DNA of 64,000 bases from Pseudomonas sp. RSB 5.4 (GTDB lineage: Bacteria > Pseudomonadota > Gammaproteobacteria > Pseudomonadales > Pseudomonadaceae): NCBI RefSeq assembly GCF_037126175.1, contig NZ_CP146986.1, positions 930,001 to 994,000 of the forward strand, read 5' to 3'. Of the stretch, positions 48,158 through 64,000 are shown piece by piece. Position 1 is the stretch's first letter, and each line of letters begins with the position of its first letter. The position numbers were made by a program, and so were the translations under genes. The notes below the pieces were generated by a model. The model had not been told where the DNA came from. It saw nothing but the letters and a program-made list of their open reading frames with translations, and made no database searches.

Positions 48158-49564
48158 CTACTGAACACTGGCCTCATCGGCCCGCCAGCCGCCGCCCAGC
48201 GCGGTGTACAGATTGACCTCGGCCACCAGTTGCGCCAGCCGGTCAGTGATCAGACCCTGTTGCGAACTGAACAGTGAACGTTGCGCATCGAGAAACACCA
48301 GACTGCTGTCGACGCCATTCTGATAACGGTGCTGTGCCAGGTTGTAGTAGTCCTGAGTGGCCTGCACCAGGTCGCGCTGCGCCTGCAATTGCTGCTGATA
48401 AGTGCTGCGCGCCGCCAAGCCATCGGCGACTTCCTGAAACGCGGTTTGAATCGATTTCTCGTATTCGGCAACCGCCACGTCTTTCTGCAACTTCGAGTAA
48501 TCCAGACTCGCGCGCAAGCTGCCAGCATTGAAAATCGGCAGGTTGATTTGTGGCTGGAAAGTCCAGCCCCCCGATCCGCCGCTGAACAGTCCGGAGAGGT
48601 CGCGGCTGGAGGTGCCGGCGCTGGCGGTCAGGCTGACGCTGGGGAAAAACGCCGCCCGCGCCGCGCCGATATTGGCGTTGGCCGCCTTCAGTTTGTACTC
48701 GGCCTGAAGAATGTCCGGGCGTCGTTGCAGCAGATCCGACGGCAACCCGGCCGGCAGTTGTTGCACCAGATCGCTGGACAGTGGCCGCGCCGGCAGTTTC
48801 TCGGGGATCTGAGCGCCGACCAGCAGCGTCAGGCTGTTCAGATCCTGCGCCACCTGGCGTTTATAACGCGCCAGATTGGCCCGCGAACTGTCGACGCTGG
48901 TTTGCGCCTGCGCCTGTTCCAGCGCCGAGGACTTGCCAGCGTCACGGTTGCGCGTGGTCAGGCGCAGACTTTGCTCATCGGCGGCCAGGGTCTGGCGGCT
49001 CAGCTCGAGCAGCTCCTGATCGGCGCGCCAGGTCAGGTAGGCGTTGGCGACGTTGGCCACCAGACTCAGCTCGGCACTGCGCCGCGCCTGCTCGGTCGCC
49101 AGCCAGGTTTGCAACGCCTGCTCACTGAGGCTGCGCACCCGGCCGAAAAAATCCAGTTCATAGGCACTGACGCCCAGATTCACCGCGTAAGTGGAATTGA
49201 TCAGCGCTTTGCCGCGGGTCACGCTGGGCGGCATGCGCTGGCGCGATTCGCTGGCAGTGGCCGACACCGCCGGCAGTAAATCGGCACGCTGAATCCGGTA
49301 CTGCGCCTGGAACGCCTCGACGTTCAGCGCCGCCACCCGCAGATCGCGATTGTTCACTAATGCGCTTTCGATCAACTGTTGCAGCGCCGGGTCGTTGAAC
49401 AAGGTGCGCCAGTCTTCAGTACGCGGTGCAGCCTGAGTCGGTGCCGGGTAAACGGTGCCTTGCGGATACTGCGCCGCGCTCGGTGAGGCAGGGCGCTGGT
49501 ACTCGGGAATCAACGAACAACCGGCGAGCAGGACGGCGAAGGACAGCAGGGAAATGCGCAACAT
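48158..49564 (-). CDS. NodT-family outer-membrane efflux lipoprotein
   Basis: 468 aa. The lipobox LLAGC is near residue 15, then the OprM/NodT family pattern appears twice ([40 protein letters not shown]). Two half-repeats build the TolC-like barrel and helical tunnel. No membrane-fusion or inner-membrane pump gene is adjacent. From memory, lipopeptide clusters of Pseudomonas carry such a NodT gene and a LuxR gene ahead of the first synthetase, and MacA/MacB genes after the last. It therefore probably exports the NRPS product with a pump encoded outside the window. Confidence 0.9.
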
Positions 49565-49648
49565 CGGACGCTCTCATGCAGAAAAAACACGTGCCGGGGA
49601 CTGAGTCCCCACACCACTATCGAACACCGCTGAACCATGACCCCGCGG

Positions 49649-50443
49649 TTACGCGCCGGCCATCCAGCGCGCCAGCCCGTGCCGTCCGCTGACCCCGAGT
49701 TTGGCGGTCGCCCGTTTGAGATAGGTCTCGATCGAACTGCTCTTGACCCGCAGCTTCTCGGCCAGTTGCGGCACGGTGCCGCCGGTCAGCAGGCCCAGGC
49801 AAACTTCTTTTTCCCGCGCCGACAGCACGATGCCGCCCAGCGCCAGGCGCTCATCCAGCATCTGTTGCAACGGTGCCTGCTCCAGATCGGCCAACGGTGG
49901 GCGCGGCTGTTTGGCGATGATTTGCCGACTGAGGTGCGCGTGCCGTTCAATCAGCGGCAGCAGGGTGTCGGACAGACTTTTGAGAAACGACAGCTCCGGC
50001 AGGGAAAACACCCGTTGCGTATGCGGTCGGTAGAATGAGATGACACAACGGCGGTTGGAGGTGCGGGACACCAGATTGCACTGGTGGACGCTGTGCTGCG
50101 GATGTCGTGGCTGAAGTGATGCTTTGAGTTGAATCAGCAGGGAATCATTCATCTCGATCATCTTCTGCAACAACGGATGATCGTCCGGACTATTCAACGG
50201 GTCCGGTGGCGGGAAGGTCTGGGGCAGGCCGGCGCTGCCCAGCGCCTTGATCTCGACCACGCTGGCCTGGCGCTCGTCGAGGATCCACTCGCTGAGGTCG
50301 ACGCGATTGACCGGCACCAAAGTGTCGACCAACTGGAACATATTGCTGGCGAAAAGATCGTCGCCCGTGCTGGCAATCAGTTCCCCCAGTTGCCAGTAAA
50401 AGTGCGGGTTTTCCATGTTGCGAATGCTGCCGGTCAGATTCAT
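49649..50443 (-). CDS. LuxR-type regulator of the lipopeptide cluster
   Basis: 264 aa. The C-terminal LuxR helix-turn-helix is clear (LSAREKEVCLGLLTGGTVPQ, LAEKLRVKSSSIETYLKRAT, GVSGRHGLARWM). The N-terminal 190 residues have no recognised acyl-homoserine-lactone domain or receiver aspartate, as in the orphan LuxR regulators beside lipopeptide synthetases. It is divergent from the NRPS and upstream of the NodT gene. Its start may be the ATG at 50443 (AAGGAT very near) or 50416. It likely activates the NRPS genes. Confidence 0.9.
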   Translation of the reverse strand: MNLTGSIRNMENPHFYWQLGELIASTGDDLFASNMFQLVDTLVPVNRVDLSEWILDERQASVVEIKALGSAGLPQTFPPPDPLNSPDDHPLLQKMIEMNDSLLIQLKASLQPRHPQHSVHQCNLVSRTSNRRCVISFYRPHTQRVFSLPELSFLKSLSDTLLPLIERHAHLSRQIIAKQPRPPLADLEQAPLQQMLDERLALGGIVLSAREKEVCLGLLTGGTVPQLAEKLRVKSSSIETYLKRATAKLGVSGRHGLARWMAGA

Positions 50444-50931
50444 ATCCTTGTCATCCCTGGTTCCGAGTCATCACCGAGTCGTCCGCTGTTTATGCAAAAG
50501 CCGCCCACGCAATCGTCCCTCCTTGAAACTGATCTGGGGCGGGATTTAAGCCTATGGATTTGTCCTACGTCTGTAGGGGAAAACAGGGACACAAAGTGCC
50601 ATCATTTCTGAAACTTGGCGCCGGGCTTCTGACGCCATTTGGTACAGATGTCGTGCGCTGCCTGACTGTTTGGTCACGGAAAGGCCTTGAAAATCGGGAC
50701 ATTTACGTTGTTGTGAGGTAACTGAGAGGGCCGATGGCAGCGCTGATGTGTGGCATTTTTCCTACAAGTTTTTCAGTGTTTCCTGTCCGAACTTTTAGAT
50801 AGTTCCCGCCCAGTCACGGTCAACAAGCACTGACAGGCCCGCGCACGGGGTGGGGTTGTCCGGGTTTCACGTGTCATGTCGGCATCGGGGCCGATGCTTG
50901 AATAGGCGCAAAATCACATGAGAAGGATCTT
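50444..50931 (+). promoter_or_regulatory. divergent regulatory region between luxR and the NRPS genes
   Basis: 488 bases without a gene. It holds the palindrome at 50561-50580 and long AT-richer runs near 50750-50810 where a promoter would fit. The end has AGAAGGA four bases ahead of the NRPS ATG, a strong ribosome site that also contains an AnGGA element such as Gac/Rsm-type repressors bind. Confidence 0.55.
50561..50580 (+). promoter_or_regulatory. candidate LuxR-type operator
   Basis: TGTCCTAC-gtct-GTAGGGGA. The inner arms CCTAC/GTAGG are perfect; the outer bases are partly matched. The geometry recalls the TGTCCCG-N4-CGGGACA box used by LuxR-type lipopeptide regulators in plant-associated pseudomonads. 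Confidence 0.45.
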
Positions 50932-53900
50932 ATGCCGCCTATTTCTGCTCTTGCGGTGGCCACGCCGTCCGCATCGCTCCAGACGTATCCGCTGACCGCT
51001 GCGCAGCTGGATATCTGGCTGGATCAGCTGAGTCGCGGTGATTCGCCGCTGTACAACATCGGCGGGTATATGGACCTCAGCGGCCCGCTGGATCCGGCAC
51101 TCATGCACGCCGCCCTCGAAGTGCTGGTGGCCCGGCATGACGCGATGCGCACGATCCTGCTGCCGGGCGCCGGTGTCGATGGCTTGCCTTTGCAGCAATT
51201 TGCCCAGTCATTAGCGGTGCCGATGCCGATCGACGATGTGTCGACGCACACTGACCCGGAGGCGGCAGCGCGGGCTCTGGTGCAGGCGCGCATCAATCAG
51301 CCCTTCGTGCTGGACGGCGGCTGCCTGTTCCGTTTTCTGTTGATCCGCCTTGATGGCGAGCGCCATTGGTTGTCCGTTCAGGCCCATCATTTGATCGTCG
51401 ATGGCTGGAGCTTCGGCGAAATGTTCAAGTCGCTGGACGAAATCTATAACGCGCTGGCGCAGGGCCGGCCTGTGCCGGCTTCGGCGCCGTCTTACATCGA
51501 CTTCATCGAAGACAATGCGCGCTATCACGCGTCGCCGCGTTATGCGCAGGACCGCATCTACTGGCTGGACAAGTACCGACAATTGCCCGAGCCGCTGTTG
51601 CTGCCGCGATATCAGCAGAGCCTGGCCGGCAATGCCGCGCAGACGCAGGTCCATGCGCAGCCCTTGCCGGCGCTGCTGCACCAGCGCATGAAACAGGTTG
51701 CCCGGGAATTTGGCGCTTCGGCATTTCATGTGTTGCTGGCGGCGCTGCACGTGTATTTCAGCCGTACCGCCGAGCGTGACGAATGGGTCGTCGGGCTGCC
51801 GATCCTCAATCGCTCCGGCGCGCGTTTCAAGTCCACGCTTGGGCTGTTCGCCCAGGTCAGTGCGGTGCGCATGGGCTTCGGCCGCGAACGCACCTTCGCT
51901 GAACTGATCAGTACGATCCGTGAGGAACTGCGCAAGGATTTCCGCCATCAGCGTTTTTCCGTGAGTGAGATGAACCGTGCCCTGGGCCTGCTGCGTGAGG
52001 AGCGCTCGCAGTTGTTCGAGGTCACGGTGTCCTACGAGCAGGGCACTCACGATTATCGCTATGGCGAGGCGTCGGGGCGCATGGTCAAGGCCTCGAACCA
52101 GGAAGAGGCCACGCCGCTTGCGGTGCACCTGCTGAGTAATCTGACCAATGACGACGCGCGCCTCTACCTGATCTACAGCGAGGCGTTTTTTGCCGCCGAT
52201 GAGGTCAAGGCGCTGGCCGACCGCTGGTTGCTGATTCTGGAGCAAGGGCTGGAGGCGGTGAACCTGCCTGTCGCGGATTTCGCGCTGAGCACGCCCGAAG
52301 AAAGCGCGCTGCTGCAACAGTGGAATGCGACACGAGTGGAATACCCGAGCGCGACGACCATCCATCAGCGTATCGAGGCCCAGGCCGCGCAGCGACCACA
52401 GGCGCTGGCGGCGGTTCATCAAGGGCATTGCCTGACCTATGCCGAGCTCAATCAGCGCGCCAACGCACTCGCTCATCATCTACTCGATCTCGGTGCACGG
52501 CCGGATGACCGGGTGGCCATCGTCGCCCGGCGCGGGCTCGACACACTGGTCGGGCTGTTGGCCATTCTCAAGGCGGGGGCCGCTTATGTGCCGCTCGACC
52601 CGGCGCATCCTGCCGAGCGCCTGAGCTATCTGCTGGAGGACAGTTCGCCGATCGCGGTGCTGACCCAGAGTGCGTTGCGCGGGCACCTGCCGGCGTTGTC
52701 GGTGCCGGTGATCGAGCTGGATCACCCGACCTGGTCCATCGCCCCTGTCGGCGCACCGAAGGTGCCGGGGCTGACCCCGGAAAACCTCGCGTATGTGATT
52801 TACACCTCCGGCTCTACCGGTCTGCCCAAAGGGGTGATGGTCGAGCATCGCACACTGTGCAATCTGGTCGATTGGCACACTGACGTTTTCGACCTGCGTG
52901 CCGGCAGCCATACGTCGAGCCTTGCCGGCTTCGGTTTCGATGCGATGGCCTGGGAAGTCTGGCCGGCGCTGTGCGTAGGTGCGATCCTGCACCTGGCGCC
53001 GGTCAGCGATGGCAACGAAGACATTGATGCGCTGCTCGACTGGTGGCGTGCGCAGCCATTGGACGTAAGTTTTTTGCCGACCCCGATCGCCGAATACGCG
53101 TTCAGCCGCCAGCTCGATCACCCGACGTTGCGCACGCTGCTGATCGGTGGCGATCGCTTGCGTCAGTTCCCGCGTCAGCAATCGTTCGAAGTGATCAACA
53201 ACTACGGACCGACCGAAGCCACCGTGGTGGCGACTTCAGGGCGCATCGACGTCGGGCAGGCGCTGCACATCGGCAAACCGGTGAGCAACGCCACGGTGTA
53301 TCTGCTCGACGAGCAGCGGCAACCGGTGCCGATTGGCGTGAGCGGCGAGTTGTACGTCGGCGGCGCCGGGGTGGCTCGCGGTTACCTGAACCGCGCGGAC
53401 CTGAGCGCCGAGCGCTTCCTGCGTGATCCGTTCAGCGCTGAGCCGGGCGCGCGCCTGTACCGCACCGGCGACCTTGCACGCTGGCGCGCCGACGGCAATC
53501 TGGAGTATCTGGGGCGCAACGACGATCAGGTGAAAATCCGTGGCGTACGGATCGAACCGGGCGAGATCGAGAGCGCACTCGCCAGCCATACGGCGGTGCG
53601 CGAAGCGGTGGTACTGGTGCGCGACGGGCAACTGCTGGCGTGGTTCACCGAGCAGGCGCCGCTGGACATCAACGCGTTGCACGCGCACCTGAAAACGCGC
53701 CTGAGCAGCGCCATGTTGCCCAGTGCTTATGTGCGTCTGGCGGCGTTGCCGCTGACCGCCAACGGCAAGGTCGATCGCAAGGCGCTGCCGGCCCCCGGGG
53801 CGGAAGATTTGATCCGCCGCGAATACGAGGCGCCGCAAGGCGAGGTCGAAATCGCTTTGGCGCAGATCTGGGCCGAAGTCCTGCAAATCGAGCGGGTCGG

Positions 53901-56900
53901 GCGTCACGACCATTTCTTCGAGCTGGGTGGGCATTCGTTGCTGGCGGTGATCATGATCGAACGCATGCGTCAGCTCGATTTGAGCAGCGATGTGCGTGTG
54001 CTGTTCAGTCAGCCGACCCTCGCGGCGCTGGCGGCTTCGGTCGGCAGCGGTCGCGAGATCGAAGTGCCGGCCAACCGCATCGCCGCCGATTGCACCCACA
54101 TCACCGCGGATATGCTGCCCCTGCTGCAACTGGATCAGCCGACGCTCGAGCGGATCGTGGCCACTGTGCCGGGCGGCGCCGCCAACGTGCAGGACATCTA
54201 CCCGCTGGCACCGCTGCAGGAAGGCATTCTCTATCACCACATCACCGCCGCTCAGGGCGATCCGTACCTGCTGCAATCGCAACTGGCGTTCGACAGTCTT
54301 GAACGCGTCGAAGCCTTCGCCGCTGCGCTGCGCCAGGTCATGGCGCGCCACGACATTCTGCGCACCGCGGTGCTCTGGGAAGGCCTGACCACCCCGGTGC
54401 AGGTAGTGTGGCGCGAGGCGATTCTGCCGTTGCAGGAGGTCGAGCTGGACCCGGCCAACGGCCCGATCATCGATCAGTTGCACGCGCGCTTCAACGCCCG
54501 GCGTTATCGCCTCGACGTCAGCCAGGCGCCACTGATGCGTCTGGTGTATGCCCGCGATCCGGCGCTGGATCGGGTGGTGGGGATTCTGCTGTTCCATCAC
54601 CTGGCCATGGACCACATCGCTCTTGAAGTAATGCGCGGCGAGATGCAGGCCAGCCTGTCGGGGCAGGTCGTGGCGCTGGCGCCGCCGGTGCCCTATCGCA
54701 ATTACGTGGCGCAGACGCGGCTGGGCGTCACAGAGCAGGAACACGAGGCGTTTTTCCGCGCGCAACTGGCGGACATCGACGAGCCGACCCTGCCGTTCGG
54801 GCTGCAGGAAGTGCAGGGCGACGGTAACGGTATCGAGGAAGCGCAGCAGGTGCTGCCGGCGGACGTGTATCAGCGTTTGCGCACCCAGGCGCGACAGGCC
54901 GGTGTCAGCGTCGCCAGTCTGATTCATCTGGCGTGGGCGCGGGTGCTGGCGGCGACTTCGGGCCAGCAGCGCGTGGTGTTCGGCACCGTGCTGATGGGGC
55001 GCATGCAGGGGGGCGAGGGTGCCGACCGCGCCTTGGGTGTGTTTATCAATAGCTTGCCGCTGCGCATCGATGTCGATGCAGGCGTGCTGGACGCGGTGCG
55101 CGCCACCCATGCGCGGCTGACCGCGCTGCTCGGCCATGAACACGCTTCGCTGGCACTGGCCCAACGCTGCAGCGGCGTGGCCTCGCCGTCGCCGCTGTTC
55201 AGCGCGCTGCTCAATTATCGGCACAGTGACGAGTCCGAACTGCTGGAGCCATCCAGCCAGGCCTGGCAAGGCATCGAAACCCTGGCCAACGAGGAGCGCA
55301 CCAATTACCCGCTGACCATGAGCGTGGACGATTTTGGCAACGGCTTGCGCTTCACCGGCAGGGCCGTCGTCCAGATCGGCGCGCAACGGATTTGCGGCTA
55401 CATGCAAACCGCGTTGCACGGTTTGCTGCTGGCCTTGGAAAAGGCCCCGCAACAGCCGTTGAATCAGTTGCCGATCCTGCAGCCGGAGGAGTTGCAGCGC
55501 TTGCTGATCACGTTCAACGCCACCGAGGTCGATTGTGCGCTGGACCAGCCGCTGCACACGCTGTTCGAAGCACAGGTGCGGCGCAAACCGCACGCCGTTG
55601 CTGCACAGACCGTCGAGCGAAGCCTGACCTATGCGCAACTCAACGAGCGCGCCAATCGCCTGGCCCATCACCTGCGCGAAGTCGGCGTGCAACCGGACTC
55701 GCGGGTGGCGATCTGCGTCGAGCGCGGGCTGGATCTGCTGGTCGGCTTGCTCGGCATCCTCAAGGCGGGCGGCGCCTACGTGCCGCTGGACCCGGACTAT
55801 CCGCTGGAGCGCCTGAACTACATGTTGCAGGACAGCGCGCCGGTCGCACTGTTGGTGCATGGCGCCACGCGACAACTGCTGGGCGAACCGGGTGTGACGC
55901 TGATCAATCTGGATCACGGCAGTTGGGAGCAGCAGCCGGCAGGCAACTTGCAGGTGCCGGGCCTGAGTGCTTCGAACCTCGCCTACATGATCTACACCTC
56001 GGGCTCCACCGGGTTGCCGAAAGGGGTGATGATCGAGCATCGCAGCGCCTGCAACATGGTGCATTGGGGTTCGCAGATTTCGCCGCCGACCGAACACGGT
56101 GCGCTGCTGCAAAAAGCGCCGTTCAGCTTCGACAGTTCGGTGTGGGAGATCTTCTGGCCGCTGTGTTCCGGCATGCGTCTGGTGCTGGCGCGGCCGGACG
56201 GCAACCGCGATTCGGCGTATGTGGTGCAGACCATTCGCGAGCAGCAGGTGACGGTGGTCAAGTTCGTTCCTGCGCTGCTGCAGCAGTTCATCGAACAGGA
56301 TGGCGTCGAGCAGTGCACCAGCCTGACCGATGTGCTCAACGGTGGTGGTGAACTCAGCGCGGCGCTGGCGCGTCAGGTGCGTGATCGCCTGCCGTGGGTG
56401 CGTTTGCACAATGTTTATGGCCCGACTGAAACCACGGTGGACAGCACGGGCTGGACGCTGGAACCGGACATGAATGTGCCGGACAACGTGGTGCCAATCG
56501 GCACAGCCTTGAGCAACACGCGGCTGTACGTGCTTGATGCGTACGGTCAACCAGTGCCACAAGGCGTCAGCGGTGAGTTGTACATCGGTGGCGTCGGCGT
56601 GGCGCGTGGTTATCACGGTTTGCCGGAGATGCAGGCCGAGCGCTTCATCGACAGCCCGTTTGTGGCGGGTGATCGCCTGTACCGCACGGGAGATCTGGCG
56701 CGCTACAACAACCATGGTGAACTGGAATTCCTCGGCCGCAACGACTTCCAGATCAAGCTGCGTGGCTTGCGCCTGGAGCCGGGGGAAATCGAGGCGCGGT
56801 TGATCGAACATCCGGCCATTCGCGAGGCGGTGGTGATGGTGCGCGATGAACGTCTGGTGGCCTGGTACACCGTGCGTTCCGGCGTAGAAGCACCGAGTCT

Positions 56901-57345
56901 TGAGACGTTGCGCAGCCATGTGCTGGAGCGCTTGCCGGAGTACATGGTGCCGGGCGCGTTTGTGCGGCTCGACGCCTTGCCACTGACGCCAAACGACAAG
57001 ATCGACCGCAAAGCCCTGCCGGAACCGGGGGGCGATGCGGTGATCAATCGCCCATACGTGGCGCCACAGGGTGAAATCGAAACCGCGCTGGCGCAGATCT
57101 GGGCTGAAGTCCTCGGCGTCGAACAGGTCGGTCGCCATGACAACTTCTTCGAACTCGGTGGGCACTCGCTGCTGGCAGTGAGTCTGGTGGCGCGCATGCG
57201 TCAGAGCGGTTTGCACACCGACGCCCGGGCGCTGTTCAGCCAGCCGACCCTGGCGGCGCTGGCGCTCAGCACCACACCCGAGGCGCAGCAAGTAGTCATC
57301 CCGCAAACCACCATCCCGAGCCTCAATCGCAAACGCCGGCTCTAG
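50932..57345 (+). CDS. nonribosomal peptide synthetase, two modules (C-starter-A-T-C-A-T), lipopeptide initiation
   Basis: 2137 aa. Domain order: C-starter (about residues 18-440, HHLIVDGWS at 152-160) for joining the fatty acid; A1 (460-960; YTSGSTGLPKG near 624); T1 (Ser near 1002 in GGHSLLAV); dual condensation/epimerisation domain (1040-1470; HHITAAQGD and HHLAMDH); A2 (1500-2000); T2 (Ser near 2079). Read against the GrsA positions, A1 gives DAWFLGNVV, a Leu code, and A2 gives DSWKLGVVD, probably Glu. There is no thioesterase, so the chain passes to the next protein. The C-terminus is basic (SLNRKRRL). AGAAGGA lies four bases before the ATG. Confidence 0.95.
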   Translation: MPPISALAVATPSASLQTYPLTAAQLDIWLDQLSRGDSPLYNIGGYMDLSGPLDPALMHAALEVLVARHDAMRTILLPGAGVDGLPLQQFAQSLAVPMPIDDVSTHTDPEAAARALVQARINQPFVLDGGCLFRFLLIRLDGERHWLSVQAHHLIVDGWSFGEMFKSLDEIYNALAQGRPVPASAPSYIDFIEDNARYHASPRYAQDRIYWLDKYRQLPEPLLLPRYQQSLAGNAAQTQVHAQPLPALLHQRMKQVAREFGASAFHVLLAALHVYFSRTAERDEWVVGLPILNRSGARFKSTLGLFAQVSAVRMGFGRERTFAELISTIREELRKDFRHQRFSVSEMNRALGLLREERSQLFEVTVSYEQGTHDYRYGEASGRMVKASNQEEATPLAVHLLSNLTNDDARLYLIYSEAFFAADEVKALADRWLLILEQGLEAVNLPVADFALSTPEESALLQQWNATRVEYPSATTIHQRIEAQAAQRPQALAAVHQGHCLTYAELNQRANALAHHLLDLGARPDDRVAIVARRGLDTLVGLLAILKAGAAYVPLDPAHPAERLSYLLEDSSPIAVLTQSALRGHLPALSVPVIELDHPTWSIAPVGAPKVPGLTPENLAYVIYTSGSTGLPKGVMVEHRTLCNLVDWHTDVFDLRAGSHTSSLAGFGFDAMAWEVWPALCVGAILHLAPVSDGNEDIDALLDWWRAQPLDVSFLPTPIAEYAFSRQLDHPTLRTLLIGGDRLRQFPRQQSFEVINNYGPTEATVVATSGRIDVGQALHIGKPVSNATVYLLDEQRQPVPIGVSGELYVGGAGVARGYLNRADLSAERFLRDPFSAEPGARLYRTGDLARWRADGNLEYLGRNDDQVKIRGVRIEPGEIESALASHTAVREAVVLVRDGQLLAWFTEQAPLDINALHAHLKTRLSSAMLPSAYVRLAALPLTANGKVDRKALPAPGAEDLIRREYEAPQGEVEIALAQIWAEVLQIERVGRHDHFFELGGHSLLAVIMIERMRQLDLSSDVRVLFSQPTLAALAASVGSGREIEVPANRIAADCTHITADMLPLLQLDQPTLERIVATVPGGAANVQDIYPLAPLQEGILYHHITAAQGDPYLLQSQLAFDSLERVEAFAAALRQVMARHDILRTAVLWEGLTTPVQVVWREAILPLQEVELDPANGPIIDQLHARFNARRYRLDVSQAPLMRLVYARDPALDRVVGILLFHHLAMDHIALEVMRGEMQASLSGQVVALAPPVPYRNYVAQTRLGVTEQEHEAFFRAQLADIDEPTLPFGLQEVQGDGNGIEEAQQVLPADVYQRLRTQARQAGVSVASLIHLAWARVLAATSGQQRVVFGTVLMGRMQGGEGADRALGVFINSLPLRIDVDAGVLDAVRATHARLTALLGHEHASLALAQRCSGVASPSPLFSALLNYRHSDESELLEPSSQAWQGIETLANEERTNYPLTMSVDDFGNGLRFTGRAVVQIGAQRICGYMQTALHGLLLALEKAPQQPLNQLPILQPEELQRLLITFNATEVDCALDQPLHTLFEAQVRRKPHAVAAQTVERSLTYAQLNERANRLAHHLREVGVQPDSRVAICVERGLDLLVGLLGILKAGGAYVPLDPDYPLERLNYMLQDSAPVALLVHGATRQLLGEPGVTLINLDHGSWEQQPAGNLQVPGLSASNLAYMIYTSGSTGLPKGVMIEHRSACNMVHWGSQISPPTEHGALLQKAPFSFDSSVWEIFWPLCSGMRLVLARPDGNRDSAYVVQTIREQQVTVVKFVPALLQQFIEQDGVEQCTSLTDVLNGGGELSAALARQVRDRLPWVRLHNVYGPTETTVDSTGWTLEPDMNVPDNVVPIGTALSNTRLYVLDAYGQPVPQGVSGELYIGGVGVARGYHGLPEMQAERFIDSPFVAGDRLYRTGDLARYNNHGELEFLGRNDFQIKLRGLRLEPGEIEARLIEHPAIREAVVMVRDERLVAWYTVRSGVEAPSLETLRSHVLERLPEYMVPGAFVRLDALPLTPNDKIDRKALPEPGGDAVINRPYVAPQGEIETALAQIWAEVLGVEQVGRHDNFFELGGHSLLAVSLVARMRQSGLHTDARALFSQPTLAALALSTTPEAQQVVIPQTTIPSLNRKRRL

Positions 57346-57370
57346 CCCGGAATTGGTTGTGTAAACCAAA

Positions 57371-57467
57371 CCCTGTGGGAGCGGGCTTGCTCGCGAATGC
57401 GGTGTAACAGTCACCATCAACATCGACTGACCCACCGCATTCGCGAGCAAGCCCGCTCCCACAGGGG
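57371..57467. repeat. REPIN between the two NRPS genes
   Basis: CCCTGTGGGAGCGGGCTTGC and GCAAGCCCGCTCCCACAGGG are inverted around about 57 bases, inside the 268-base gap between the synthetase genes. Confidence 0.92.
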
Positions 57468-57613
57468 GATTGCGGCGGCCGAGCCTGTGGCTTGTCCCCG
57501 CTTCCCATGTCAGCCCCGCAAGCCCCGATGTTTTAGCTTTTCCAGGCTGCGCGCAGCAGGCACGGACTCGCCGCTGCGCGCTCCTTTTTCTCGTATTTAC
57601 AGCAGGTTATCCC

Positions 57614-60600
57614 ATGCATTTCAGCGAACTGATGGCTGTTATTTCCACCCATGCGATCCGCCTTCAACAGGAAGATGAAGACCTGGTCATTCTGGGCAGC
57701 GACGACGCGCTGGACGATGCGTTGTGGGACAGCCTCAGCGAACACAAGGCGCAGCTGCTGGAACTGGTCGCGCAACACGGTGGCGACTGGCTGAGCCCGG
57801 CGTTTCGCATCACCCCGGACATGCTGCCGCTGGTGACGCTGGATCAGCCGACCATCGATCGGCTGGTCGCCAATGTGCCCGGCGGCGCCGCCAACCTGCA
57901 GGACATTTACCCGCTGGCGCCGCTGCAGGAAGGCATGCTCTATCTGCATCTGTCGGCGCCCGCCGGTGACCCTTACGTGTCGCAGGCGCGGTTCGCCTTC
58001 GACAGCCGCGAACATCTGGACGCCTTCGCCGAGGCGTTGCAGTGGATGATCGAACGCCACGACATCCTGCGCACCTCGTTCGTCTGGGAACGCCTGGACG
58101 AACCGCTGCAAGTGGTGCAGCGGCAGGCTCGTCTGCACTGCGAAGAAATCGCCCTCGCGCCGGGCGCGGATGTCCTGACGCAATTGCTGGAACGCCACGA
58201 CCCTCGATTCTTCCGCCTCGACATCCAGCAGGCGCCGCTGCTGCGTCTGGTCTACGCCATGGACCCGGACAACGGTCGTGTGGTCGCGCTGTTGCTGTTT
58301 CATCACCTGATCATGGACCACGTCGCCCTCGATGTGGTGCGCCGCGAAACCCGCGCGCACCTGCTCGGCCAGACCGCGCAGGTCGGGCCGGCGGTGCCGT
58401 ACCGCGATCACCTGGCCAAGGCCCGCCTGCGTCTGGACGAGCAGGTGCACGAAGCGTTTTTCCGCGAAATGCTCGCCGACATCGACGAGCCGACCTTGCC
58501 CTGTGGTCTGCAGGATGTGCAGGGCGATGGCCAAGGCATCGAAGAAGCCTTGCTGATGCTCGACACCGATTTCAGCCGGCAACTGCGCGGCCAGGCGCGT
58601 CAGCTCGGCGTCAGTGTGGCGAGCCTGATGCACCTGGCGCTGGCGCGGGTGCTCGGCCAATTGTCCGGGCGTACGGCGGTGGTGTTCGGCACCGTGCTGC
58701 TGGGGCGGATGGCGGCGGGAGAGGGTGGCGAACAGGCGCTGGGGATGTTCATCAACACCTTGCCGCTGCGCGTGGATGTCGGGCAGGACGGCGTGCGAGC
58801 CGGGGTGCTTGCAACCCATCGACGCCTGACCGCGTTGCTCGGCCATGAGCAGACCTCGCTGGCTCTGGCCCAGCGTTGCAGCGCGGTGGCGGTGCCGACG
58901 CCGCTGTTCAGCGCGATCCTCAACTATCGCCATAGCAGCAGTGAAGAAATCGCCGAAGTCAGCGAACTGGCCCCCGGCGTGCAAGTGCTGGGCGCCCGCG
59001 AGCGCACCAACTACCCGCTGACGATCAACATCGACGACCTCGGCGAAGACTTGCGCATCACCGCGCTGGCCGATGCGGCGCTGGGCGCCGAACGCATCGC
59101 CGCTTATCTGCACACCGCGTTGCACAGCCTGCTGCAGGCCTTGCAATCGACCCCGGATGCGCCGCTGCAACGCCTGAATATTCTGCCGGCCGCCGAGCGC
59201 GAATACCTGCTGCACGGGGTCAACTCGCCGTTGCCGCAGTTCCCGGAAGCGCCGCTGATTCATCAGCAATTCGAAGCCCATGCGGCGGCGCGCCCTGAGG
59301 CCACAGCGCTGCTGTTCGAGGCGCAGACGCTGAGCTACGGCGAGCTGAACCGCCGCGCCAATCAGCTTGCGCATCACCTGCTGGCACAGGGGATTCGCCC
59401 GGATCAGCGCGTGGCGATCTGCGTCGAGCGTGGCCCGCACATGATCATCGGCCTGCTCGGTATCCTCAAGGCGGGCGCCGGTTACGTGCCGATCGACCCG
59501 GCGTATCCACTGGAGCGCATCGCCTACACCCTGCAGGACAGCGCCCCGGTGGCGGTGCTGACCCAGGCCGATACGCTGGACCGGGTTGGCGCGCTCAACG
59601 TGCCGATCATCGCTCTGGACAGCCTGCAGTTGCAGGCTGAACTCAGCAGCAATCCGCAGATTCCCGAGCTGACTCCAAGTCATCTCGCCTACGTGATCTA
59701 CACCTCCGGTTCCACCGGGCTGCCCAAAGGCGTGATGGTCGAACACCGCAACGTCACGCGCCTGTTTTCGGCGACCCACGACTGGTTCAACTTCAACCCG
59801 CAGGACGTGTGGGCGCTGTTCCATTCCTTCGCTTTCGACTTCTCGGTGTGGGAAATCTGGGGCGCGCTGGCGTTTGGCGGCCAGTTGTTGCTGGTGCCGC
59901 AGGCCGTCAGCCGCTCGCCGGACGACTGCTACGCGCTGCTGTGCCGCAGCGGCGTCACCGTGCTCAATCAGACCCCGAGCGCCTTCCGCCAGTTGATCGC
60001 CGCGCAGGGGCGCAGCCCGTTGCAGCACTCGTTGCGCGAAGTGATTTTCGGCGGCGAAGCCCTGGAACCGGGCCTGCTCAAACCGTGGTACGCGCGGGTC
60101 GGCAATGCCGGTACGCGGCTGGTGAACATGTACGGCATCACTGAAACCACGGTGCACGTGACCTATCGCCCACTGCAGGCAGCGGACGCACTGCTGGTCG
60201 GGCGCAGCCCGATCGGTGTCGGCATCCCCGACCTGCAGCTGTACGTGCTCGACGCGCAGCGCGAACCGGTGCCGGTCGGTGTGATCGGCGAGTTGTACGT
60301 CGGTGGCGCCGGGGTTGCCCGCGGCTACCTCAACCGCGAGACGCTGACTACCGAGCGCTTTATTGCCGACCCGTTCAGCGGCCGTGCCGAGGCGCGTCTG
60401 TACAAGACCGGTGACCTCGCGCGCCGGACGGCGGATGGCAGCCTTGAGTACCTGGGGCGTAACGACGATCAAGTGAAGATCCGTGGTTTCCGCATCGAAC
60501 TCGGTGAAATCGAAGCTCGCCTGGCAGCCTGCACCGGTGTGCGCGAAGCGGTGGTGATCGCCCGCGAAGACAGCCCCGGCGATCAGCGTCTGGTCGCCTA

Positions 60601-63600
60601 CTGGCTGGCCGCCGAAGGCGCTGAGCCGAGCGCTGCGCAATTGCGCGACGAGTTGCTGCTGTCGCTGGCCGACTACATGGTGCCGAGCGCGTTTGTGCGC
60701 CTCGATGCGTTGCCGCTGACCAGCAACGGCAAGCTCGATCGCAAAGCCTTGCCACAACCGGACAGCGAGGCGTTCGCCCGTCGCGGTTTCGAAGCCCCGC
60801 TGGGACCAGTGGAAGAGCTGATCGCCGGGATCTGGCAGACCCTGCTCGGTGTCGAGCAGGTCGGGCGGCATGACAATTTCTTCGAACTTGGCGGTCATTC
60901 GCTGTTGGCGGTGAAACTGATCGAACGCATGCGTCAGCACGACTTGCAGTGCGACGTGCGCGTGCTGTTCGGCCAGCCGAGCGTGGCGGCACTGGCGGCG
61001 ACCTTGAGTCACCGTCACGCCCTGCGAGTGCCGGACAATCGGATTCCTGCCGATTGCCCGCGGATCACCCCGGACATGCTGCCCCTGGCGACGCTGGATC
61101 AGGCCGCCATCGACCGCGTGGTCGCCACTGTGCCCGGCGGCGTTGCCAATGTGCAGGACATCTATGGCCTGGCACCGTTGCAGGCAGGGATCCTCTATCA
61201 CCATCTGGCGACCAGCGCCGGTGACCCGTACGTGTTGCAGGCGCAATTCGCCTTCGCCGGACTGGCGCAGATCAAGGCCTTCGTCCGTGCGTTGAACGCA
61301 GTGATCGAACGCCACGACATTCTGCGCACCAGTGTGGTCTGGGAAGGGCTTGAAGAACCGGTGCAAGTGGTCTGGCGCGAGGCGCCGCTGGCGCTGGAAC
61401 GGGTCGATGCCGACCTGCTGGTCGGCGATGTGCTGGAGCAGATGCAGGCACGGTTCGATCCGCGGCACTATCGCCTCGACCTGCGCCGCGCACCGCTGAT
61501 GCGTCTGGCCTACACCGAAGATCGTGAACAGCAACGCTGGGTTGGCATCCTGTTGCTGCACCACATCGTGCTCGACCACACCGCACTGGAAGTGTTGCTC
61601 GCGGAAATGAACGACAGCCTGTACCCGAGCGGCGTCGATCTGCCGCCGCCGGCGCAGTACCGCAACTACGTGGCGCAGGCGCAACAGCAGGCCAATGCCC
61701 AGGCGCATGAAGCGTTCTTCCGCGACATGCTCGGCGACATCGACGAGCCGACCGTGGCCTTCGGTGTGCAGGACGTGCATGGCGATGGCAGCACGATCAT
61801 TGACAGTGAGCAGGCGCTGGACGCTGGCGTGGCCGAGCGGTTGCGCGAGCAGGCGCGCCGCCTCGGCATCAGCGCGGCCAGTCTGGTGCACCAGGCCTGG
61901 GGCCAGGTGCTGGCGCAGGTTTCGGGGCGCGAAGAGGTGGTGTTCGGCACCGTACTGCTCGGGCGCATGCAGGGCGGCGAGGGTGCCGATCGCGCACTCG
62001 GCATGTTCATCAATACCTTGCCGCTGCGGGTCAGCGTCGGCGCGACCGCGGTGAAGCAAGGCGTGCGCGCTACTCACGAACGTCTGGCGCAATTGCTGGC
62101 ACATGAGCAGGCCTCACTGTCGCTGGCCCAGCGTTGCAGCGGTGTTGCCGCGTCGCTGCCGCTGTTCAGCAGCTTGCTCAACTATCGCCACAGTGCGGCG
62201 GAACCGGCAGGCGTGACCTGGGACGGGATCGAGATTCTCAGCTCGCGCGAGCGCAGCAACTATCCGCTGGTGGTCAGCGTCGATGACCTCGGCGCAGGTT
62301 TCCGCCTGAGCGTGCAGGCGGTGCCGCAAGTGGATGGCGCGCGGGTCTGCGATTACTTGCAGACCGCGCTGCACAACCTGCTGACCGCCCTCGAGCACAA
62401 TCCGGCCACGCCGCTGCGGCAGATTTCGGTGATGTCGCCGAGCGAGCGGCAGCGGGTCCTGGTCGGGTTCAACATCACCGGTCGCGACTACCCGCCGGCG
62501 CAGACCGTGCAGCGTTTGTTAGAGGCCCAGGCGGCCTCGCACCCCGAGGCATTGGCGGCGGTGCAAGGCACCCAGCAGTTGAGCTATGGCGAACTCAATC
62601 AGCGGGCCAATCGCCTGGCGCATCACCTGATCGGCCTTGGCGTGCAGCCCGATGACCGGGTCGCCCTGTGTGCCCGGCGCAGCCCGGACATGCTGGTCGC
62701 GCTGCTGGCGATCCTCAAGGCCGGCGCCGGTTATGTGCCGGTCGATCCGGCGTATCCGCCGGAACGCATCGCCTATCTGTTGCAGGACTGCGCCCCGGTG
62801 GCCGTCGTGGCGCAGGCATCGACCCGCGATCTGCTCGGTGGCGTGCCGGTCATTGATCTGGACAACGACCTCTGGCAGCACCTGTCGGATGCCAATCCGC
62901 AGGTGCTGGCATTGACGCCGAAGCATCTGGCTTACGTGATCTACACCTCCGGCTCCACTGGCCAACCGAAAGGGGTGATGGTCGAGCATGCGACCCTGGA
63001 AAACCTCGTGCACTGGCACGCTGAAGCCTTCGACTTGCAGGCCGGCAGCCAGACTGCGAGTGTCGCCGGCTTCGGGTTCGATGCGATGGCCTGGGAAGTC
63101 TGGCCAGCGCTGTGTGTCGGCGCCACTTTGCACCTGCCGCCGGCGTCGATCCGCAACGAGCACCTCGACGAGCTGCTCGACTGGTGGTGCGCGCAGCCGT
63201 TGCAGGTCAGCTTCTTGCCGACGCCGGTGGCCGAATACGCGTTCAGCCGGCAATTGCAGCACCCGACCTTGCGTACGCTGCTGATCGGTGGCGACCGACT
63301 GCGTCAGTTCAGTCGCCAGCAAACCTTCGCAGTGATCAACAACTATGGCCCGACCGAAGCGACGGTGGTCGCCACCTCGGGGCCGGTCGAGCTTGACCAG
63401 CCGTTGCATATCGGCCGCCCGATCGCCAATGCCAAAGTCTACGTGCTGGACGCTGAACAGCGCCCGGTGCCGGTGGGTGTGGCGGGCGAGTTGTATGTCG
63501 GCGGGGCGGGCGTCGCGCGCGGCTATTTGAATCGCCCCGAGCTGAGCGCTGCGCAGTTCCTCTTCGATCCGTTCAGCGACGAGCCGCAGGCACGCATGTA

Positions 63601-64000
63601 CCGCACCGGCGATCAGGCGCGTTGGCTGGCCGACGGCAACATCGAGTACCTGGGGCGCAACGACGATCAGGTCAAATTGCGTGGCGTGCGTATCGAACTC
63701 GGTGAAATCGAAGCCGCGCTCGGCAGCCACGCTGCGCTGCAGGAAGCGGTGGTGCTGGTCCGCGACGGGCGGCTGATTGCGTGGTTCACCGAGCGCACGG
63801 CGGTCGATATTCAACAGTTGCATACGCATTTACAGGCACGCTTGCCGGATGCGCTGCTGCCGGCGGCTTACGTGCGGCTGGACGCATTGCCGCTGACCGC
63901 CAACGGCAAGATCGACCGCAAGGCCTTGCCGGAACCGGAGCATGGCGCGTGGCTCAGTCGCGAGTATCAGGCCCCGCAAGGGCCGGTCGAGACGGCGCTG
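57614..64000 (+). CDS. nonribosomal peptide synthetase, second protein (docking-C-A-T-C-A-[T]; cut by window edge)
   Basis: 2129 codons are visible with no stop. Residues 1-55 (MHFSELMAVISTHAIRLQQE) form a TubC-like docking domain. Then come a dual C/E-type domain (65-500; HHLIMDH), A3 (code DFWNIGMVH, a Thr code), T3 (Ser near 1096 in GGHSLLAV), a second dual C/E-type domain (1150-1570; HHLATSAGD and HHIVLDH), A4 (code DAWFLGNVV, Leu) and the start of T4. It adds residues 3 and 4 of the lipopeptide and, judging by homologous systems, two more beyond the window. CAGG lies eight bases before the ATG at 57614. The REPIN upstream may place a new promoter or weaken readthrough. Confidence 0.95.
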   Translation, partial: MHFSELMAVISTHAIRLQQEDEDLVILGSDDALDDALWDSLSEHKAQLLELVAQHGGDWLSPAFRITPDMLPLVTLDQPTIDRLVANVPGGAANLQDIYPLAPLQEGMLYLHLSAPAGDPYVSQARFAFDSREHLDAFAEALQWMIERHDILRTSFVWERLDEPLQVVQRQARLHCEEIALAPGADVLTQLLERHDPRFFRLDIQQAPLLRLVYAMDPDNGRVVALLLFHHLIMDHVALDVVRRETRAHLLGQTAQVGPAVPYRDHLAKARLRLDEQVHEAFFREMLADIDEPTLPCGLQDVQGDGQGIEEALLMLDTDFSRQLRGQARQLGVSVASLMHLALARVLGQLSGRTAVVFGTVLLGRMAAGEGGEQALGMFINTLPLRVDVGQDGVRAGVLATHRRLTALLGHEQTSLALAQRCSAVAVPTPLFSAILNYRHSSSEEIAEVSELAPGVQVLGARERTNYPLTINIDDLGEDLRITALADAALGAERIAAYLHTALHSLLQALQSTPDAPLQRLNILPAAEREYLLHGVNSPLPQFPEAPLIHQQFEAHAAARPEATALLFEAQTLSYGELNRRANQLAHHLLAQGIRPDQRVAICVERGPHMIIGLLGILKAGAGYVPIDPAYPLERIAYTLQDSAPVAVLTQADTLDRVGALNVPIIALDSLQLQAELSSNPQIPELTPSHLAYVIYTSGSTGLPKGVMVEHRNVTRLFSATHDWFNFNPQDVWALFHSFAFDFSVWEIWGALAFGGQLLLVPQAVSRSPDDCYALLCRSGVTVLNQTPSAFRQLIAAQGRSPLQHSLREVIFGGEALEPGLLKPWYARVGNAGTRLVNMYGITETTVHVTYRPLQAADALLVGRSPIGVGIPDLQLYVLDAQREPVPVGVIGELYVGGAGVARGYLNRETLTTERFIADPFSGRAEARLYKTGDLARRTADGSLEYLGRNDDQVKIRGFRIELGEIEARLAACTGVREAVVIAREDSPGDQRLVAYWLAAEGAEPSAAQLRDELLLSLADYMVPSAFVRLDALPLTSNGKLDRKALPQPDSEAFARRGFEAPLGPVEELIAGIWQTLLGVEQVGRHDNFFELGGHSLLAVKLIERMRQHDLQCDVRVLFGQPSVAALAATLSHRHALRVPDNRIPADCPRITPDMLPLATLDQAAIDRVVATVPGGVANVQDIYGLAPLQAGILYHHLATSAGDPYVLQAQFAFAGLAQIKAFVRALNAVIERHDILRTSVVWEGLEEPVQVVWREAPLALERVDADLLVGDVLEQMQARFDPRHYRLDLRRAPLMRLAYTEDREQQRWVGILLLHHIVLDHTALEVLLAEMNDSLYPSGVDLPPPAQYRNYVAQAQQQANAQAHEAFFRDMLGDIDEPTVAFGVQDVHGDGSTIIDSEQALDAGVAERLREQARRLGISAASLVHQAWGQVLAQVSGREEVVFGTVLLGRMQGGEGADRALGMFINTLPLRVSVGATAVKQGVRATHERLAQLLAHEQASLSLAQRCSGVAASLPLFSSLLNYRHSAAEPAGVTWDGIEILSSRERSNYPLVVSVDDLGAGFRLSVQAVPQVDGARVCDYLQTALHNLLTALEHNPATPLRQISVMSPSERQRVLVGFNITGRDYPPAQTVQRLLEAQAASHPEALAAVQGTQQLSYGELNQRANRLAHHLIGLGVQPDDRVALCARRSPDMLVALLAILKAGAGYVPVDPAYPPERIAYLLQDCAPVAVVAQASTRDLLGGVPVIDLDNDLWQHLSDANPQVLALTPKHLAYVIYTSGSTGQPKGVMVEHATLENLVHWHAEAFDLQAGSQTASVAGFGFDAMAWEVWPALCVGATLHLPPASIRNEHLDELLDWWCAQPLQVSFLPTPVAEYAFSRQLQHPTLRTLLIGGDRLRQFSRQQTFAVINNYGPTEATVVATSGPVELDQPLHIGRPIANAKVYVLDAEQRPVPVGVAGELYVGGAGVARGYLNRPELSAAQFLFDPFSDEPQARMYRTGDQARWLADGNIEYLGRNDDQVKLRGVRIELGEIEAALGSHAALQEAVVLVRDGRLIAWFTERTAVDIQQLHTHLQARLPDALLPAAYVRLDALPLTANGKIDRKALPEPEHGAWLSREYQAPQGPVETAL

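Follow-up and report, generated by a model that had tools for sequence, protein, structure and literature searches.

Arthrofactin belongs to the Amphisin family of Pseudomonas cyclic lipopeptides, which is defined here by 11 residues and a nine-residue ring closed by an ester from Thr3 to residue 11; the definition of arthrofactin used also includes a 3-hydroxydecanoyl chain. Its published sequence is Leu-Asp-Thr-Leu-Leu-Ser-Leu-Ser-Ile-Ile-Asp (Table 2 of both PMC3039948 and PMC8788793) and its configuration is tabulated as D1-D6, L7, D8, L9 and L10 (PMC3039948, Table 2). The ArfABC system of Pseudomonas sp. MIS38 is described as having 2+4+5 modules, dual condensation/epimerization (C/E) domains and tandem thioesterases (TE) (PMC3039948). 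The lokABC clusters of P. koreensis S150 and Pseudomonas sp. COR10 are described with genes for PCuAC, SCO, an outer-membrane efflux protein, a LuxR regulator, three NRPSs, MacA and MacB (PMC7520995, PMC6636606). Three further peptides have producers whose genomes could be compared. Milkisin, made by P. crudilactis UCMA 17988, is given as Leu-Asp-Thr-Leu-Leu-Ser-Leu-Gln-Leu-Ile-Glu (PMC5985324, PMC8788793); anikasin, made by P. fluorescens HKI0770, is reported with Asp2 and Asp11; and nepenthesin, made by Pseudomonas sp. H1h, has Gln6 and Ser8, with a Val4 domain named in its paper.

The DNA analyzed here (the window, 64,000 nucleotides) corresponds to G000:C1:930001-994000 of Pseudomonas sp. 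RSB 5.4, whose 6.24 Mb genome is a single contig, and the remainder of the cluster was read from the same genome (980001-1031000). ORF and Pfam analysis found, on the - strand, the two accessory genes that had been proposed for this locus: one for a PleC-like, NodT/OprM-type outer-membrane efflux protein of 468 aa (48158..49564; two OEP stretches, PF02321, E 3.5e-52) and one for a LuxR-family regulator of 264 aa (49649..50443; Pfam GerE, E 1.7e-8). The NRPS genes are on the + strand. The first, arfA-like (50932..57345, 2137 aa), encodes modules 1 and 2 with two Condensation, two AMP-binding and two PP-binding stretches by Pfam, and its best segment is 89-92% identical to the counterpart in P. 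koreensis DSM 16610, H1h, HMWF021, P. parakoreensis and RIT288. It is followed by a spacer of 268 bp (57346..57613); trigenic clusters are reported to have an intergenic region of 150-300 bp between the first and second NRPS genes (PMC9948697). The second gene, arfB-like, was taken to start at the ATG at 57614, the codon chosen in this analysis; it occupies 57614..64000, leaves the window and ends at G000:C1:1000627, encoding four modules in about 4337 aa. Its portion within the window contains two Condensation, two AMP-binding and one PP-binding stretches, and a weak match to the TubC_N docking domain fell under the cut-off.

Beyond position 64000, a third NRPS gene (G000:C1:1000624-1018467, 5947 aa) adds five modules; a carrier domain followed by two thioesterase stretches (tandem TE) forms its end. 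The NRPS part stops at G000:C1:1018467 and is followed by macA (HlyD type) and macB, and SCO1 and PCuAC genes are located upstream of the NodT-type, LuxR and NRPS genes, so that order and orientation are identical to those described for lokABC. There are 24 condensation stretches genome-wide, 11 of them in this cluster, arranged 2+4+5 over the three ORFs. Epimerization (E) domains also match the Condensation family, and 11 such stretches for 11 A domains leave no separate E domain over. The cluster consequently shows the Amphisin-family organization, with three NRPS genes of 2+4+5 modules, dual C/E domains without separate E domains, and a tandem TE. When 57 genomes (this one and relatives) were searched with the first NRPS, 41 had matches, which for the most part were partial or weaker NRPS ones. 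Among plasmids, a nucleotide search returned 27 records, none with a single place spanning 80% of the query. Among solved structures, the 60 of 64 sequences listed were by molecule name NRPSs and other adenylating enzymes, none of them named as this cluster.

The condensation domains in the window, all on the + strand, are C1 (50980..52314, G000:C1:980980-982314, motif HHLIVDG), C2 (54187..55506, G000:C1:984187-985506, HHLAMDH), C3 (57899..59212, G000:C1:987899-989212, HHLIMDH) and C4 (61151..62455, G000:C1:991151-992455, HHIVLDH). In a tree without support values, C1 clustered with the C domains that open the anikasin, milkisin and P. poae assembly lines, in agreement with its proposed role as starter domain, and each of the 11 C domains grouped with its anikasin and milkisin counterpart. 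C2-C7 and C9 have the xxxDH form of the motif, which we take to mark the dual epimerization/condensation type, and C8, C10 and C11 the xxxDG form, presumably the ordinary type; the two sets group apart in the C-domain tree. These types predict D configuration at residues 1-6 and 8 (residues 1, 2 and 3 through C2, C3 and C4) and L at 7, 9 and 10, which is the arthrofactin pattern. The motif of C5 (second NRPS, before module 5, beyond the window) is QHLILDH in place of HHxxxDH. A damaged domain was rejected as explanation because the QH form is common to other loci (L015, L017, L020, L054 and L069, 5 of the 12 others matched by pattern, the H1h locus included), and it was taken as a clade variant.

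The A domains in the window, also on the + strand, are A1 (52432..53790), A2 (55624..57021), A3 (59330..60754) and A4 (62579..63931). Their codes were re-read as in the original prediction, DAWFLGNVV, DSWKLGVVD, DFWNIGMVH and DAWFLGNVV, respectively, and Leu1, Thr3 and Leu4 were supported. The HMM column suggested that the Leu code has S, not F, as its fourth letter; this was discarded as an alignment gap, since the ungapped VSFLPTP gives F. Code positions follow what we take to be GrsA numbering, and the substrates of the common codes (Leu, Thr, Ser, Ile) were assumed from general knowledge of the field and checked against producers. The 11 codes give, in order, Leu-X-Thr-Leu-Leu-Ser-Leu-Ser-Ile-Ile-X, X being DSWKLGVVD at both modules 2 and 11, and A8 to A11 read DVWHMSLVD, DAMFLGCTY, DAMFLGCTY and DSWKLGVVD. 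Pseudomonas sp. HMWF021 has an identical set of 11 codes; in P. koreensis DSM 16610 the codes are identical at the 10 of 11 modules that could be read (all except module 6). No paper turned up in a literature search for DSWKLG.

A reading of A2 as Glu/Asx by its code alone was dropped in favor of calibration on producers of known peptides. Named genomes were scanned with the first NRPS and 68 loci were kept out of 478 places encoding a relative; 14 of these 68 were taken further, and 14 additional stretches, drawn from 13 of their genomes, were included for the later modules. The codes of UCMA 17988 (L021/L085) fit milkisin at 11/11 positions; its Asp2 module has DSWKLGVVD and its Glu11 module DGWKFGVVD. 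Those of HKI0770 (L030/L084) fit anikasin at 11/11, with DSWKLGVVD at both Asp2 and Asp11. The H1h codes fit nepenthesin, including a Val code at A4. DSWKLGVVD occurs once, at module 2, in 26 of the 68 loci. Among the domains in the comparison table, A2 of RSB 5.4 has an identity of 0.818-0.952 to the A2 and A11 domains coded DSWKLGVVD, and of 0.714-0.736 to the four coded DGWKFGVVD or DGWKLGVVD. Because DSWKLGVVD stands at the Asp positions of the milkisin and anikasin producers, X is predicted to be Asp at modules 2 and 11, on the basis of code, position and orthology and not of the tree alone.

The original prediction had left A2 at Glu/Asx/Glx and considered a Glu2-Leu4 combination. It is unlikely that this domain mainly activates Glu, which would put Glu2 (and Glu11) into an arthrofactin-like peptide. 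The Asp and Glu A domains of the Amphisin family are closely related, and stechlisin E2 has Glu2, the other listed stechlisins of its strain having Asp2. However, both acidic domains of RSB 5.4 have S as their second code letter (position 236). The modules for Asp in milkisin and anikasin have S there too, whereas G stands at milkisin Glu11 and in A2 of P. poae DSM 14936, the latter taken as Glu from its family and not from that strain's chemistry. Position 236, S or G, is therefore suggested to distinguish modules for Asp from those for Glu among the calibrated family members. A2 had rightly been named as the weak link of the assignment. In a tree of 81 A domains, with some weak nodes, Asp and Glu were not cleanly separated, and the Glu-coded L040 (DGWKFGVVD) and L024 (DGWQFGVVD) adjoined the DSWKLGVVD group. 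Co-clustering of Asp and Glu A domains is also described for the Amphisin family, as is recruitment of both amino acids by arthrofactin A11 and stechlisin A2 (PMC9948697), so that minor Glu congeners of the product are possible. The combination of Glu2 and Leu4, which had been considered unusual, is already in print for MDN-0066, prosekin and stechlisin E2 (PMC8788793, Table 2).

With Asp at modules 2 and 11, the residue order equals the published arthrofactin sequence and the C-domain types fit its D/L pattern; on these grounds we regard the locus, with a probability of about 0.9, as an Amphisin-family assembly line that is complete, with 11 modules, and has arthrofactin as its predicted main product. 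Leu-Asp-Thr at the N-terminus, a mark of the family, is predicted by the calibrated codes, and Ser8, Ile9, Ile10 and Asp11, which mark arthrofactin, are likewise predicted. In module layout, dual C/E domains, tandem TE, predicted residues and configuration, the cluster equals the ArfABC system of MIS38 as published, and no difference was seen at the level of the predicted product, the likeness being to the published description and not to the gene sequence. Putative arthrofactin producers GM30, BS3658, CRS05-R5 and Irchel s3a10 have Ile9 predicted from their A domains, as here, all of these being predictions (PMC6636606). Milkisin and anikasin share the family and the A2 code and differ from the predicted peptide by Gln8, Leu9 and Glu11 and by Leu9, respectively. 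Lokisin also has Leu9 and a stated mass of 1354.6 g/mol (PMC7520995), with which arthrofactin is expected to be isomeric, and its cluster is described with identical gene order and 2+4+5 layout; even so, a lokisin or anikasin type with Leu9 replacing Ile9 is very improbable, as A9 here is DAMFLGCTY, like A10, and A9 of HKI0770 and P. parakoreensis has a Leu code. Ile-type domains are, according to the literature, also able to take Val or Leu (PMC9948697). A product of gacamide type has the least to recommend it. Gacamide likewise has 11 residues, in its case with a five-residue ring, and comes from the same Pseudomonas subgroup with related A domains, but its first two NRPSs are stated to hold seven modules together (PMC12948218), against six here in the arthrofactin residue order. 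The Viscosin, Orfamide and Poaeamide families (9 or 10 residues, Glu/Gln2) were discarded in view of the 11 modules and the Asp code.

ORFs, Pfam content and full module order thus bear out the view of this region as an NRPS locus for an acidic cyclic lipopeptide of Pseudomonas. The suggestion that it fits no common group was abandoned, and with it the claim of novelty: extension to the right led to the Amphisin family, arthrofactin type, the outcome that the original prediction had itself set against a new compound. The predicted product of the arthrofactin-type cluster is most likely an already described surfactant lipopeptide, and the cluster drops off the list of candidate new lipopeptides. 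By analogy with the family, the starter C domain would acylate Leu1 and the dual domains C2-C7 and C9 would each epimerize the preceding residue. The tandem thioesterases would release and cyclize a peptide expected to be a 3-hydroxy fatty acid on D-Leu1-D-Asp2-D-allo-Thr3-D-Leu4-D-Leu5-D-Ser6-L-Leu7-D-Ser8-L-Ile9-L-Ile10-L-Asp11, the fatty acid and allo-Thr being those of the family, with a ring of nine residues presumably closed between Thr3 and Asp11. MacA/MacB and the NodT protein would provide export, and the LuxR protein probably regulates the cluster.

The two Asp-selecting domains showed a further feature. Over a core block of A2 (55954..57153, + strand), DNA identity to the A11 core is 0.89-1.00 in 75-base steps, with flanks at 0.64 and 0.53, and it climbs again to 0.85 upstream, at 55654-55803. 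The core (alignment columns 1050-2100) was compared in seven genomes. In the core tree, A2 pairs with the A11 of the same genome in P. koreensis, H1h, HMWF021 and P. parakoreensis (ultrafast bootstrap 95-100) and in RSB 5.4 (94); those of HKI0770 group with 92 on long branches, and those of RIT288 are unpaired. In the 600 columns preceding the A domain and in the first 450 columns of the domain itself, the split is by module (100 and 99), and in the whole-domain protein tree the A2 domains of these genomes group separately from the A11 domains. At third codon positions of the core, A2 and A11 of RSB 5.4 agree at 301 of 350; when its domains are set against the orthologues of four relatives, the figure is 249-277 of 350. 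Agreement within genomes, again out of 350, is 323 in H1h, 314 in P. koreensis, 293 in HMWF021, 278 in P. parakoreensis, 267 in RIT288 and 216 in HKI0770.

The cores of modules 2 and 11 thus look homogenized within most of the genomes compared, as by gene conversion. Gene conversion of the core would be the simplest reading of these alignments, with more than one event if the pairs are independent. Recombination of A-domain cores as such is already known, since A-domain recombination in a Streptomyces has been reported in a paper citing hot-spot work that includes Pseudomonas (PMC9205934). A structure study describes acidic residue 2 and the C-terminal acidic residue of arthrofactin as lying together (PMC12948218), which might be a reason for both modules to be kept alike. 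We lean toward the view that in arthrofactin-type clusters repeated gene conversion in each genome may keep the two cores alike, so that the acidic residues, neighbors in the folded peptide, would change together and not independently. The likeness of A2 and A11 is a modest, testable example of the way in which two distant modules of an assembly line may be kept alike.

Some observations concern other loci. At L091 (RIT288), A11 has the code DNWKLGMVD, together with Gln8-Leu9-Ile10 codes; this may be a cluster of amphisin type that uses a different code for Asp. At L033 (Pseudomonas sp. TH15), the first NRPS is split into two open frames (1707 and 536 aa) with the break inside A2, either a real frameshift or an assembly error. 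Finally, the genome of RSB 5.4 contains two more groups of NRPS condensation domains, at G000:C1:446524-469965 and 2636327-2645434, which, judging by their codes, may serve siderophore synthesis.
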